Assembly: GCF_023823125.1 (NCBI RefSeq)
Contig: NZ_CP090949.1
Location: forward strand, 2,504,001-2,568,000
Direction of reading: 5' to 3'
Length of the DNA: 64,000 nucleotides
Source of the DNA: Erythrobacter aurantius
Lineage (GTDB): Bacteria; Pseudomonadota; Alphaproteobacteria; Sphingomonadales; Sphingomonadaceae
Position numbers and translations under genes: made by a program. The notes below the pieces were generated by a model. It was given only the letters and a program-made list of their open reading frames with translations, was not told the origin of the DNA and did not search any database. Numbering within the stretch: position 1 is the first letter of the stretch; every line of letters starts with the position of its first letter. Below are positions 53,957 to 61,882 of the stretch, piece by piece.

Positions 53957-54081
53957 GCAGGACGAACCGGCAATGTTCAGCTCTATTGTTCGAAAGCAGA
54001 GGTTCGCGGGTGAGCGCGAGCCATGCCTCCGGATGCGGCGCCGTTAGCGGGGAACGGGGGGCGGGTCAAGGGGGAGGCGAA

Positions 54082-55659
54082 TCACAAAAGAAAACCAGGA
54101 ATCATCTCGTTCATGAACCTCCGGACTGTTTCTCGATGCCTCTGAACCTCAGACTTGTCTGGAAACCTTACCTTATGCACCACTTCATCGCGTAGGTTCG
54201 CCAATTCACGTAACTGTGTTCGATAAGGAAGCGATCCACCTTCTGGTATCTGTCCTGCCAATGCGCTCCGCCTCTCCAGCGCACCTAGCGCCTCCCTCAA
54301 GCCGACGGTTTTTCCTTGATCATTAGAATATGGCTCAGGCGGATCTAAAGTCTGATGGAGAGCATAGCAAAAAAACTCACTCGCCATATGAAGCCCAATT
54401 ATCGCCATCTGCCGACCGACGATCTCATCGCTATCGGTGCTCTCAGACGCAATGAAAAAGTGCTCTTTAGCAAGATCTACAAAACCCGCTTCTCGCGAAA
54501 ACTTCGGTGCCGAATCAATTAGTGCCTCCGCGACAATGGCATTCAATGTTTCTGACGCTCGCCCACGCAAATCCCATAGTCCGTCTGGCCGTTGCTTACT
54601 CAAAAGAAAGCGTTCAGCCCCATCAATCTCCCTATGATAGTGGTCCTCATCAGTGCGCCTAAGCGCATCTAAAACCAGAGCAGTGACAAATGCCTCACCC
54701 TTTCTGCCATCCAAATGGGCCCAGCCCCCGTCTTTACGCTGCACTCCCGACAACCAGTCGCAAGCAGAATAGACGGAATTCCTTACGTGCTCATCCGATA
54801 GGCCGAAAAATGTGCCCAATCCAACGGCAATCGCAGCAGTTGCCATGACGTTCGGCTGGATCGCTGGGCCATGACCAGACATCCAACACCCCTCTGGTCT
54901 TTGCCACCTAAGGAGTGCCCGAAAATATTGTCTCGCTGGCCTAAATATCGCGCTTCTTATCCTCAGGTCTCTTACAGCTGCAATCAGAGACCAAGGGCCT
55001 TCACTTGGATATGGAACCTCGAAATTGATGTTGGGAGCGTCCTTGATGGACTCAAATGCGGCGCCAAATTCCGCATGGTACCACTCCCTGACGTCTGAGA
55101 GATACCGTTCTTTAGTACGCCCAGTAAGATAACTTGAGAATCTACAAACATAAAGCCAATGTATTAGTGTAATGTATCCATTATAATCTTCAATTGCATC
55201 TCGTGAAAAATTTCGTCCCAGACTATCCTCTTCGATCCATTTATTTTCTAGACATATAGACCAGTAAGCAATGTTCCCCTCTACTTCGGCGTTAGCACAA
55301 AGGCCGGCGGCAGTCTTGATCTTTGAAGAAGGAATCTTCTCCAACGACGCAATGAGTTTTCTTTGATATCGCGATATGATCTTGGCGAGTTCAGTGTCCT
55401 CACGCATACCTTCCTCAGCATCTGCATAATCGAACACCATCTCTGCGGTTGGATTCTTCCCTCGCGACCCATGCGGTTTTGCTTGCGAGATCAATGCTGA
55501 CACCGATGTCGCTATGTCGGTCCGCCGATGCCCGTCAATTTCACCATGCTTTTTCGACAATGCAACAAATACGAGGTTCCTTTGCGCCAACGAGATATAC
55601 TTGAGTTTGACAAGGCATTGGGCGATCTGGGCCGAAAGTCGGTTGATCTCATTCATCAT
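54082..55659 (-). CDS. Alpha/alpha-toroid (terpenoid-cyclase-like) protein with HEPN-like C-terminus
   Basis: A 525-residue soluble protein; no signal peptide. Residues about 225-400 hold repeats of the squalene-cyclase/prenyltransferase toroid type: QRPEGCW (253-259), QRKDGGW (307-313) and QRPDGLW (356-362), each followed by a helix. Residues 400-525 are helical with RDEVVH at 490-495, an R-x4-H pattern as in HEPN ribonucleases. The N-terminal 220 residues are unrecognised. AT-rich DNA against a GC-rich background indicates transfer. No partner gene on the same strand. Start ATG 55659 or 55656. A sensor-plus-RNase role is inference only. Confidence 0.7.
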   Translation of the reverse strand: MMNEINRLSAQIAQCLVKLKYISLAQRNLVFVALSKKHGEIDGHRRTDIATSVSALISQAKPHGSRGKNPTAEMVFDYADAEEGMREDTELAKIISRYQRKLIASLEKIPSSKIKTAAGLCANAEVEGNIAYWSICLENKWIEEDSLGRNFSRDAIEDYNGYITLIHWLYVCRFSSYLTGRTKERYLSDVREWYHAEFGAAFESIKDAPNINFEVPYPSEGPWSLIAAVRDLRIRSAIFRPARQYFRALLRWQRPEGCWMSGHGPAIQPNVMATAAIAVGLGTFFGLSDEHVRNSVYSACDWLSGVQRKDGGWAHLDGRKGEAFVTALVLDALRRTDEDHYHREIDGAERFLLSKQRPDGLWDLRGRASETLNAIVAEALIDSAPKFSREAGFVDLAKEHFFIASESTDSDEIVGRQMAIIGLHMASEFFCYALHQTLDPPEPYSNDQGKTVGLREALGALERRSALAGQIPEGGSLPYRTQLRELANLRDEVVHKVRFPDKSEVQRHRETVRRFMNEMIPGFLL

Positions 55660-55917
55660 ATTTCTCGGTTTTTTTGGGCCAATATTCTGCCGGCTATTCT
55701 AGCAATTTTCCGGAAACCGCCAATGGGGGTGGAAGAATCGACTATCGATAGCTGGTGCAACAATCAGCGGCGTGGGTGCCGGAAAGGTGAGCGCCCGACC
55801 CGAGCGACGCCGGAGCACACCGGCGGCTACCTAGCGAGAACGAAGGCGTGAATGCGTTCTCGCTAGGCAAACAACCAATTTTCCTACTCCCCCAAAATCT
55901 GCAATCTACCCGTGGCT
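55660..55917. other. Intergenic region with a perfect 13-bp inverted repeat
   Basis: CCTAGCGAGAACG (55830-55842) and CGTTCTCGCTAGG (55855-55867) form a perfect inverted repeat with a 12-base loop. It lies about 50 bp upstream of the HTH gene and could be an operator or a terminator without T-run. The remainder near 55660 is AT-rich. No gene seen. Confidence 0.45.
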
Positions 55918-58345: not shown

Positions 58346-58433
58346 GACAGCTCCAAGGTAGCAATTCCTGACCCACCCACAAGAGCACAAACGCAGCTAA
58401 TCCCCTCCCCGTTCCGACTGGTGCACCGAATCC

Positions 58434-58568
58434 TCACATCCCGCCCTGCGCTCTCTGCGCCGCTGCCTGCGCCACAGGCACGGGATCAGCCGGGTTGTGC
58501 TGCGCGAGGAACGCGTCGAGCGCGTCGTACCATTGCTGTTCGTTCGCGGCATTGGTGAAGCTGTGGCC
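58434..58568 (-). pseudogene. Duplicated 3'-terminal fragment of the S9 peptidase gene
   Basis: Minus-strand translation gives FTNAANEQQWYDALDAFL and ends VAQAAAQRAQGGM, nearly the last 45 residues of the peptidase at 59828-61882 (FTKAENEQQWYDALVAFL, ending AQTAQGGM). 50 bp are identical (58456-58505 versus 59850-59899); the rest differs by scattered substitutions. Homology stops at 58568. It has no start and is not a gene. The arrangement suggests integration or duplication at the peptidase 3' end. Confidence 0.85.
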
Positions 58569-58612: not shown

Positions 58613-59323
58613 TTAATTCAACCAGTTTTTCTCCAGATGCACTGCATCTCGAAGCCAAATCTCGCGAGCGATTTCTCGGCCCCTCACTCCGTAGGCCCTT
58701 GAGGCGAACCCTCGTAGTGATCGGATCACCTTATCAAATCTCTCTTTGCTAGACGGCTCGCCCCATGATTCCACATAGTCGCGGTCAACGACAGGAGGAA
58801 GCTGGGTGGTTAGGATCGCATCCAGCAACCAACGACGCTCTTTCGCTGATCGGTTTTCCGACAAGGCATAACCGAGCGACGCAAGGATGCCTTTACGCGG
58901 GTTATCGGCTCCGGCAGTGGTCGCTGGTTCCAACCATGTATCGTGGTTTGGTTCAAGCAAGCGACGCCTTACCCATTCGCTCTGTATTGCTGCGAGATGC
59001 AGATGCGCCTGTCGGATTTGCGCGGCCTTCCCCGGCAATTCCGCATGGTGGCAAAGATTGATCTGCAAGGCAGTCCATCGCTGCCTCAAAGTCGCTTCGT
59101 CACAGACTTCAATTCGGCTCAAAGCCCTTTGCGGTGCAGCGCCAGTCAAAAGCGACTGCAAGAATCTCTTGGCCCCCCTGCTCTTCCGGAACCGGAGCTC
59201 GTTAACGACCGCTGAGGGTTCAAAGGCGCTCCTCTTTCGTAAATCATCCAGCGAAAGGCTGCGCAATGGCCTCGAGCAATTTGCGGAAAGAACGCTTCGG
59301 GTAAACATTCGAGAATACTCCAT
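58613..59323 (-). CDS. Hypothetical protein in an island-like insertion
   Basis: A 236-residue basic protein from ATG 59323, preceded by AAGGAGA. The C-terminal 75 residues read RRWLLDAILTTQLPPVVDRDYVESWGEPSSKERFDKVIRSLRGFA... , a module (LP.V...Y...WG.P.S..R..K...S...F) that I recall from other accessory proteins of unknown function. The rest is helical and without recognised family. It lies between the peptidase 3'-end fragment and the intact peptidase, so it probably arrived with that event. Confidence 0.6.
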   Translation of the reverse strand: MEYSRMFTRSVLSANCSRPLRSLSLDDLRKRSAFEPSAVVNELRFRKSRGAKRFLQSLLTGAAPQRALSRIEVCDEATLRQRWTALQINLCHHAELPGKAAQIRQAHLHLAAIQSEWVRRRLLEPNHDTWLEPATTAGADNPRKGILASLGYALSENRSAKERRWLLDAILTTQLPPVVDRDYVESWGEPSSKERFDKVIRSLRGFASRAYGVRGREIAREIWLRDAVHLEKNWLN

Positions 59324-59827
59324 GATGCATGTCTCCTTTTTTGCACCGAGCCTCGGAGTTGATCCGGGCTCAACCGTAACAATCCTTTGGGTTCGCGCGC
59401 GCGTGCGCGCGCGCGCGCGTGTGCGCGCGTGAACTGGCCAATGATGCGGGAACGGCGCGACGCTTCTTGGGGGGCCTGAGCCCAATGAAAGTTAGGTAGC
59501 GGGGAAGGCGGCCAATAATGAAAATTCTGCCGGGTTAATTTGTCCACGGCTTGGCTATGGCGAGCCCACAGGGCGCCTCTGCACGCACGCCCACACGGGT
59601 GGGCGTGTTACTGCGTAAAAGATCAAGCGAATTAACCTTTGACGCACAATTAAGCGTGCCTGCAAACACTTGCAAACGAGGGAGGAGGTGGCCTTACTCC
59701 TGAAAGAGAAAATGGGGTGAGAATTGCTGATCGCAAGGCCTCAATCGAAAAAATGTCCCCGCGTTGGCCCGAGAACGGCAATTTCGGAACTATGTGCCGA
59801 CATTCCCTTGGATCTTGCGGCAAATCC
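59324..59827. other. Gene-free spacer of 504 bp with repeats
   Basis: I see no gene. It holds the alternating purine-pyrimidine tract at 59394-59431, a perfect hairpin CACGCCCAC-ACGG-GTGGGCGTG (59586-59607), and AT-richer stretches. It is part of the DNA that separates the two copies of the peptidase 3' end. Confidence 0.5.
59394..59431. repeat. Alternating CG/TG tract, possible Z-DNA former
   Basis: 38 bp of strictly alternating pyrimidine-purine (mostly CG with three TG), flanked by GTTC on the left and GAAC on the right. Such tracts readily adopt Z-form under negative supercoiling. It lies about 70 bp upstream of the gene at 58613-59323. Confidence 0.75.
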
Positions 59828-61882
59828 TTACATCCCGCCCTGCGCTGTTTGCGCCGCTGCCTGCGCCACAGGCACGGGATCAGCCGGGTTGTGCTGCGCC
59901 AGAAATGCCACCAGCGCATCGTACCATTGCTGCTCGTTCTCGGCCTTGGTGAAGCTGTGGCCTTCGCCTTCGATCATCAGCGTGTCGACCGGCACCGATG
60001 CGTCCTTCGCGGCGCGCTCAAAGCTGTAGAATTGCGAGGCAGGCACGCGCTGGTCCTCGCTGCCGTGGGCCAGCAGCACCGGGCGCGACAGATTGGCCGC
60101 GTGGTTCACCGGGGAATAGGCGTCGAGATCGAAATCCTCACCCTCCACCCGTTCGCGCAGGTCGCGCGCGCGCTTGCGCCCCAGATAGCGCCGGTCATAG
60201 CTGAGCATCCGGTCCCAATCGGTGACGCCCGCCCAGCTGGCGGCGCAGCGATAGCGTTCGGGATTGCGGATCACCGCCCACAGCGCGGCAAAGCCGCCGT
60301 ATGATCCGCCGACAACGCAGACCCGCCCGCCATCGGCAATGCCTTCGTTGACGGCCCAGTCCATCGCATCGTCGATATCGTCCTGCATCGCGCGCCCGAC
60401 CTGACCGACGCCCGCCTGATAGAACGCCTCGCCATAGCCGCCGCTGCCCCGGAAATTGGGTTGCAGCACGGCATAGCCGCGATTGGCGAGCAGCTGCACT
60501 TCGTCATTGTATTGCAAGAGGTCGCGCACCCCGAACGGCCCGCCATGCGGCATGACGATCAACGGCAGATCACGCGGTTCGCGCCCGCGCGGCAGAGTGA
60601 GATAGGCCGAGATCATCAACCCGTCGCGCGCCTGATACCGCACGGGATAGCTGCGCGCGAGTTTCTGGAAATCGAGTTCGGGCCGGTAATCGCCCAGCAG
60701 ATCGAGCCGCTTTTCCTCCGGCGAGAACAGGTAGAGCGCGCCCGGATCGGCTTCGCTCCCGCCCCAAACCAGCATGCGTTCGTTGTTGCGCGAACGGGTG
60801 ACGATCCGCAGATCCTCCATCTGCAGCGCGCGGCCCAGATCGCGGTGCAGCTTGGCCATGTCCGGATCGAACCATTCGATCCGCTCGCGATCGTCGGTGT
60901 AAAGCGCGGCCAGCGGGGTGCCGTCGCGGTTGAGCCACAGCTCCTCCACGTCCCATTCGGGGTTTTCGTAGAAGGTTTCGATCACCTCGCCCGTGCTGTA
61001 ATCGAACAGGCGCACCCCGATGCGGCCGTTCTCGCCTTCTTCCAGCACATAGCCGCGATCGCTGCCCGACACGATCTGGACGACATTCCAGTAGCGCGAG
61101 CGTTCATCGTCCTCGCGCAGCTTGTCCACCAGTTCGAAATCGTCATTTTCGGTTTCGCGGTAGTAGATGCGCAGCCGCTTGTTGCGCCAGCCCATGCCAA
61201 GACGCACCACGCCCGCATCATCGGCATACCAGTCCCACACGCCGCCCACCGGCTTTACCACGCGTTCGCGCTTGGCCCCCGGCACCAGTTCATAGCGATA
61301 GACCGAAGGGTCGCTTTGCCGCGTGTACTGGAGCGAAACCAGCGCATAGCTGCCGGCTTCATCCACATGGATGAGATCACCGCCCCAGAGCAGTTCGTTC
61401 GGCACGTCGAGCATGAAGGTTTCATTGTTGACGATGTTGCGCACCAGCAGGCGGTTCACCCGGACGGGAATGTCGTAATACATTCCGCGCATCGAGATCG
61501 ACATGATGATCTTGTCGTTTCCGGCCCAGCGGAACCAGTCGACCTCCTGTTCGGGATCGAATTTGAAGACCTTTAGCGGCGCCTTGGTCGCAGCGTCGAT
61601 AATCAGCAGATCGGTGGTGCCTTCGAATATCCGCTTCGTCACCAGATGCACCCCGTCGGGCGACATGCTGAAACTGCGATAGGCGCTGCGGGCGGCGAAA
61701 TCATGGGTGGGGATTTCTCCGGGGGCGATATCCTCCACCGTGATCGAAAGGTCGGACAGGCGGGTGATCGCAGGAGGAGCGGATTGCGCCTGATCGGCTG
61801 CCGGTTCCTGCGCCGAAAGCGGGCTTGCGGCGATCAACGCCGCGACAAAGGACAGCCGCGCTGCCCAGGCCATAAATTTCAT
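59828..61882 (-). CDS. Secreted S9-family serine peptidase (prolyl oligopeptidase type)
   Basis: A 684-residue enzyme with a signal peptide (RLSFVAALIAASPLSAQ). Residues about 60-400 form the beta-propeller; residues 410-665 the alpha/beta-hydrolase. Catalytic Ser is in GGSYGGFAA, Asp in LAHGSEDQRVPASQ, His in EGEGHSFTKAE; oxyanion neighbours HGGPFGVRD. Typical of dipeptidyl/acylaminoacyl-peptidase relatives. The C-terminus ends VAQAAAQTAQGGM, duplicated as a fragment at 58434-58568. Confidence 0.95.
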   Translation of the reverse strand: MKFMAWAARLSFVAALIAASPLSAQEPAADQAQSAPPAITRLSDLSITVEDIAPGEIPTHDFAARSAYRSFSMSPDGVHLVTKRIFEGTTDLLIIDAATKAPLKVFKFDPEQEVDWFRWAGNDKIIMSISMRGMYYDIPVRVNRLLVRNIVNNETFMLDVPNELLWGGDLIHVDEAGSYALVSLQYTRQSDPSVYRYELVPGAKRERVVKPVGGVWDWYADDAGVVRLGMGWRNKRLRIYYRETENDDFELVDKLREDDERSRYWNVVQIVSGSDRGYVLEEGENGRIGVRLFDYSTGEVIETFYENPEWDVEELWLNRDGTPLAALYTDDRERIEWFDPDMAKLHRDLGRALQMEDLRIVTRSRNNERMLVWGGSEADPGALYLFSPEEKRLDLLGDYRPELDFQKLARSYPVRYQARDGLMISAYLTLPRGREPRDLPLIVMPHGGPFGVRDLLQYNDEVQLLANRGYAVLQPNFRGSGGYGEAFYQAGVGQVGRAMQDDIDDAMDWAVNEGIADGGRVCVVGGSYGGFAALWAVIRNPERYRCAASWAGVTDWDRMLSYDRRYLGRKRARDLRERVEGEDFDLDAYSPVNHAANLSRPVLLAHGSEDQRVPASQFYSFERAAKDASVPVDTLMIEGEGHSFTKAENEQQWYDALVAFLAQHNPADPVPVAQAAAQTAQGGM

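Follow-up and report, generated by a model that had tools for sequence, protein, structure and literature searches.

The window analysed here is a stretch of 64,000 nucleotides of the Erythrobacter aurantius genome (NCBI RefSeq assembly GCF_023823125.1, contig NZ_CP090949.1, positions 2,504,001 to 2,568,000 of the forward strand). Our subject is a gene that lies between rpsL, which was recognised from its sequence, and a gene for a 233-residue protein with no Pfam match. In the encoded protein, of 525 residues, a helical N-terminus and an alpha/alpha toroid of the terpenoid-cyclase type precede a C-terminal HEPN domain. An earlier note made from the sequence had described toroid repeats and a C-terminal R-x4-H motif in this one gene, and both are indeed present.

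A low-GC insert upstream of rpsL

The GC content of the gene is 0.490 overall and 0.475 at third codon positions, when compared to third-position values of 0.72-0.84 in nine other genes of the window. To locate the edges of the region we used BLAST against 15 loci from the same genus, in which homology ended at 54072 at most (L054, L058) and resumed at 55878 at the earliest (L052); thus, the insert is about 1.8 kb in length and contains one long gene. A perfect 12-base inverted repeat (cctagcgagaac / gttctcgctagg) was seen by eye at 55830-55867, close to the insert's outer end.

At an E-value threshold of 1e-10, the family of the gene was missing from all 113 other genomes searched in the genus and from the 395 other genomes sampled in the order, which argues that the gene is not a housekeeping gene. 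(Among the other 297 genomes sampled in the taxonomic family, 12 gave a match, but these were rejected as relatives because the match was limited to part of the toroid region.) Composition, insert boundaries and this absence from the other genomes searched in the genus support the proposal in the earlier note that the low-GC gene was acquired, and it probably was. The earlier note also pointed to its lone position beside an essential operon; it is the only long gene in the insert.

The toroid and HEPN domains

An AlphaFold2 model of the whole protein (predicted local distance difference test 89.0, predicted template modelling score 0.83) places helices at residues 2-38, 43-59, 72-80, 83-88 and 90-107 of the N-terminal region, ahead of the toroid and the HEPN domain (Table 1). 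Note that comparison of the whole model with known structures was dominated by matches to toroids, so that residues 1-107 were barely probed, and for the same reason the C-terminal domain was modelled separately. The best structural matches of this domain, a comparison set beforehand as a test of the earlier note, were HEPN structures sharing the helical core, several of the solved ones being HEPN toxins of MNT-HEPN pairs.

The portions consulted of a survey of the HEPN superfamily define its motif as Rx4-6H with a polar residue (N, D or H) after the arginine (PMC3710099). RDEVVH at residues 490-495 fits this definition with D in the polar position; in the model, helix 480-494 stops within the motif and the next helix spans 502-519. 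To examine conservation, the window fragment was aligned with 46 proteins chosen from 105 homologues, the window's own copy (P0002) being among the 46. (P0101, P0102, P0104, P0106, other near-duplicates and fragments were left out; P0104 and P0106 have no HEPN domain.) R490 and H495, whose conservation the earlier note had made decisive, were identical in 46/46 proteins, as were E428, Y432, R480, L486, T451 and G453, and position 491 was D in 44 proteins and N in two. In earlier, wider alignments the motif columns were only "nearly invariant" because fragments were included. Moreover, R[ND]xxxH was found within the last 120 residues of 101 of the 105 proteins (P0002 included; P0001 and the neighbour gene P0008 excluded), and the other four (P0088, P0089, P0104 and P0106) end, by eye, without a HEPN domain.

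No HEPN model in Pfam (at E 10 or below), NCBIfam or PADLOC was matched by the window protein, and among 13 relatives scanned, five matched HEPN_RiboL-PSP with scores under its cut-off. With PADLOC 2.0.0, neither the window protein nor any of eight further proteins (seven relatives and one neighbour gene) matched a family at E 10 or below. An Rfam scan of the window gave no match.

We suggest that the HEPN domain would act as a metal-independent ribonuclease (RNase), probably as a dimer. It could also be a HEPN fold without catalysis that serves, say, in binding or dimerisation, given that some HEPN families have lost the catalytic motif, according to the same portions of the survey (PMC3710099), and that E428 is followed by the invariant Y432 and so falls outside the Ex3[KR] form typical of the acidic residue that many HEPN families have in helix 2. 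However, a non-catalytic module would have no need of R490, D491 and H495, which are kept near-universally across diverged homologues, and we hold this alternative to be highly improbable.

The toroid carries QW repeats at residues 253-259, 307-313 and 356-362 and matches the squalene-hopene cyclase C-terminal domain of Pfam (E 1e-7). Sequence matches and structure comparison thus agree on an alpha/alpha toroid with QW motifs, as in class II terpenoid cyclases, although its extent, for which the earlier note had marked out residues 225-400 for checking, is corrected to about 112-386. The hallmark motif of class II terpenoid cyclases, DxDD, is absent from the window protein and occurs at any position in only 6 of the 107 proteins collected; the toroid is therefore unlikely to work as a class II cyclase, and a role for the gene product as an active terpene cyclase was rejected. 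(P0003 and P0004 have a common DxDD sited before the toroid; those of P0016, P0059, P0076 and P0084 lie at differing positions.) Squalene-hopene and drimenyl diphosphate synthase type cyclases differ from the window protein further, as the latter has one toroid only and is fused to HEPN. The complete ring and the good match of its fold and QW motifs to cyclases would suit a HEPN protein that acts in metabolism under the control of a ligand, in which the toroid still binds or modifies terpenoids. The scarcity of DxDD, together with the absence of the gene from the other genomes searched in the genus and order, makes such a role quite improbable.

Cargo at the same site and distant relatives

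To determine what occupies this position in related genomes, we sampled 20 other genomes of the genus, found rpsL in 19 and examined the locus in 15 of these (L052-L066; 53649-55911 in the window). In 11 of the 15 (L052-L058, L061, L062, L065 and L066), open reading frames (ORFs) of GC 0.55 or less lie between rpsL and the next conserved gene, whereas L059, L060, L063 and L064 have none. With a threshold of E 1e-4, PADLOC gave matches in 5 of the 11 cargo-bearing loci (Table 1), and the other six gave no or weak matches, an ORF of L066 (2755-3489) having been outside the scan. Thus, the cargo of this site varies from genome to genome and in some relatives includes known defence genes. It is likely enriched in defence genes, the comparison being with genes of the window and not with random inserts: none of 10 other window genes matched PADLOC at E 0.01, an easy control in that several of the 10 are translation genes. 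The unassigned cargo genes of L052, L054 and L058 and the GHKL ATPase of L056 are candidates for new defence genes. (In a literature search for a defence hotspot at rpsL, no title among the matches listed concerned rpsL.)

Table 1 Features of the toroid-HEPN gene and its insert, and cargo at the same site in relatives
Feature	Location	Strand	Basis or remark
Whole gene, 525 residues: helical N-terminus, alpha/alpha toroid and HEPN domain	54082..55659	-	AlphaFold2 model
Helical N-terminal region, residues 1-107	55339..55659	-	AlphaFold2 model
Complete alpha/alpha toroid, terpenoid-cyclase type, without DxDD, residues 112-386	54502..55326	-	
HEPN domain, residues 388-525	54085..54498	-	
Predicted RNase active-site motif (Rx4H), R490-D-E-V-V-H495	54175..54192	-	At end of helix 480-494
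E428, invariant acidic residue, helix 413-437	54376..54378	-	Alignment, 46/46 proteins including the window's own
Low-GC insert upstream of rpsL, outer limits	54073..55877	.	
PD-Lambda-5_A	L055		PADLOC 232 bits
Drt8	L061		PADLOC 315 bits
ThsB	L062		PADLOC 434 bits
AriA/PtuA-like ATPase	L065		PADLOC 74 bits; partner gene matches AriB at E 0.005 only
HipA_2 and DUF3037, as PDC-M66A/B	L053		PADLOC 22 and 38 bits
LuxR-type regulator	L057		
GHKL ATPase	L056		

The cargo is not confined to anti-phage genes, since it includes a LuxR-type regulator and a HipA_2/DUF3037 pair. These genes, like the MNT-HEPN toxins among the best structural matches, speak for a stress or maintenance toxin, that is, a HEPN RNase triggered by starvation or loss of a partner and not by phage. 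Such a toxin we consider unlikely, since no antitoxin gene adjoins the gene, which stands as the only long one of its insert, the 275-residue toroid exceeds the need of a simple toxin, and four relatives have PADLOC matches of 74-434 bits at the site.

A search of about 5.8 billion proteins, with the 7997 best candidates scored, returned five matches, of which one was the window protein itself and the other four were close homologues of 47-74% identity. Searching with residues 398-525 added a bridging protein, P0107 (39% identity over the C-terminus), and tblastn gave a match on pSymB of Sinorhizobium meliloti, with 27% identity over residues 249-518, that led to P0007, a search seeded with which yielded 98 proteins. 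As each of the two protein searches scored about 8000 candidates, the toroid-HEPN family may exceed the set found. Names that the sources give to relatives in the P0007 search include "hypothetical protein" and "terpene cyclase/mutase family protein", and one relative, P0028, is named "Apea-like HEPN domain-containing protein". No relative of the window protein was found in viral contigs or phage records, and none of full length, other than the window's own, in 385 genomes of the class and 398 of the phylum. The other matches there (3/385 and 8/398) all fell inside the first 156 profile positions, which correspond to the N-terminal module of the P0007 family. (Two further candidates were rejected by eye: L002 of Massilia horti as an ordinary squalene-hopene-cyclase-like protein and L003, from a gammaproteobacterial metagenome-assembled genome, as the end of one.)

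Proteins of the P0007 family share the order of toroid then HEPN and the same invariant residues, but have an N-terminal module of their own that is found too in proteins annotated as TIR. The earlier note had asked whether homologues neighbour defence islands, and P0007 does adjoin such genes: as annotated, an AbiE pair lies on one side and, on the other, a Phd-type antitoxin, after which come genes for type I restriction-modification. Its module matched 60 plasmid records, 51 of them from Escherichia, and among the matches listed 33 of 36 Escherichia rows were annotated as TIR-domain proteins. In L067, the ORF with the module continues into a CAP12/Pycsar TIR domain (E 2e-36; PADLOC PDC-S35). 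The same kind of N-terminal module is therefore succeeded by HEPN in some proteins and by TIR in others, and this speaks for the HEPN part being an effector.

The module comprises about 125-145 residues (MFNLLVSGNG... RTHWAIKD; residues 1-145 of P0007, and also in L067, L069 and L070), and no Pfam model matched it at cut-off in P0007 or L067. Its partners are toroid-HEPN, the CAP12/Pycsar TIR domain or a C-terminal part without a Pfam match, the ORFs of L069 and L070 having given none. Residues 40-141 of P0007 were also matched in three phage records (LR595870.1, NC_049386.1 and OV696610.1), two from Peduovirus and one from Escherichia phage Tritos, the genes concerned being hypothetical. Sixteen bases after the S. 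meliloti toroid-HEPN gene is a hypothetical gene of 243 residues (L023, 10872-11603), for which PADLOC gave no match and Pfam none above cut-off; the window gene has no such partner alongside.

Elsewhere in the window, a direct repeat of 147 bp, 89% identical (58422-58568 and 59816-59962, one of the copies ending a peptidase-like gene on its 3' side), flanks about 1.25 kb of lower GC that looks like a second small insert. This segment holds an ORF on the minus strand (58613-59485), the last 236 residues of which have no Pfam or PADLOC match, and a CG-rich, palindrome-capable dinucleotide run, CGCGCGTG, at 59394-59429.

A proposed toroid-regulated RNase in phage defence

We propose that the gene is a single-gene system for abortive phage defence. 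In resting cells the toroid and the helical N-terminus would keep the HEPN RNase off, the toroid, without the cyclase catalytic motif, serving as a binding ring. Binding of a phage product, or of a ligand made upon infection, would then free the active site (R490, H495), and the RNA cleavage that followed would arrest or kill the infected cell before phage release. The defence role, raised in the earlier note, draws support from the cargo at the same site in relatives and from the neighbours of the distant P0007, and we judge this mechanism in full to be rather probable. Weighing against it are the HipA_2/DUF3037 pair and the LuxR-type regulator at the site, the departure of E428 and Y432 from the common form, the easy window-gene control, which weakens the support from the site, and the fact that the window protein has an N-terminus other than the P0007-type module.

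The best precedent is Tha of S. aureus prophages. In the portions consulted of its description, Tha is a single protein with a C-terminal HEPN domain and R-x4-H, whose histidine is required for defence; it is a non-specific RNase switched on by phage minor tail proteins (PMC11087260). If the window protein works in the same manner, its toroid and N-terminus would restrain the HEPN domain until an infection signal binds. Tha-1, at 301 residues, differs in having no discernible N-terminal domain, whereas the window protein has a 275-residue toroid and a helical N-terminus. ApeA-type anti-phage proteins likewise have a HEPN effector, and P0028, a cousin, is named after them, although the window protein and seven relatives have no PADLOC match. 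To our knowledge, ApeA has no toroid. Compared with MNT-HEPN toxins and Csm6, the insert has no MNT gene, no CARF domain was seen in the protein and the regulator is the fused toroid.

No description uniting HEPN with a terpenoid-cyclase toroid was found in the literature searched, which omits most subscription papers. The words toroid, squalene, terpen and prenyl do not occur in the HEPN survey (PMC3710099), and toroid refers to ATPase or ORC rings in the portions consulted of PMC8195603 and PMC12839542. The suggestion that the architecture is undescribed thus stands as to the fusion, although the HEPN call on the wider family is not wholly new because P0028 already bears such a name. What we rate as new is the regulatory domain on a HEPN effector of known type. 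Since the N-terminal module of the cousins occurs in TIR proteins too, toroid-HEPN and TIR could be interchangeable outputs of one sensing scheme. We raise, tentatively and with some doubt, a new class of immune receptor in which a terpene-cyclase-type ring senses an isoprenoid-like signal or a protein of the phage and thereby switches the fused HEPN domain.

Bacterial immune pathways often end in a HEPN RNase, and for few of these enzymes is it understood how they are switched off and on. If the proposal is true, the alpha/alpha toroid fused to HEPN would represent a switch of a new type, in which an enzyme fold is reused as a sensor. About 100 relatives, for which the names hypothetical and terpene cyclase are common, would then be annotated anew as probable RNases, and further defence genes of this genus could be sought at the site upstream of rpsL.
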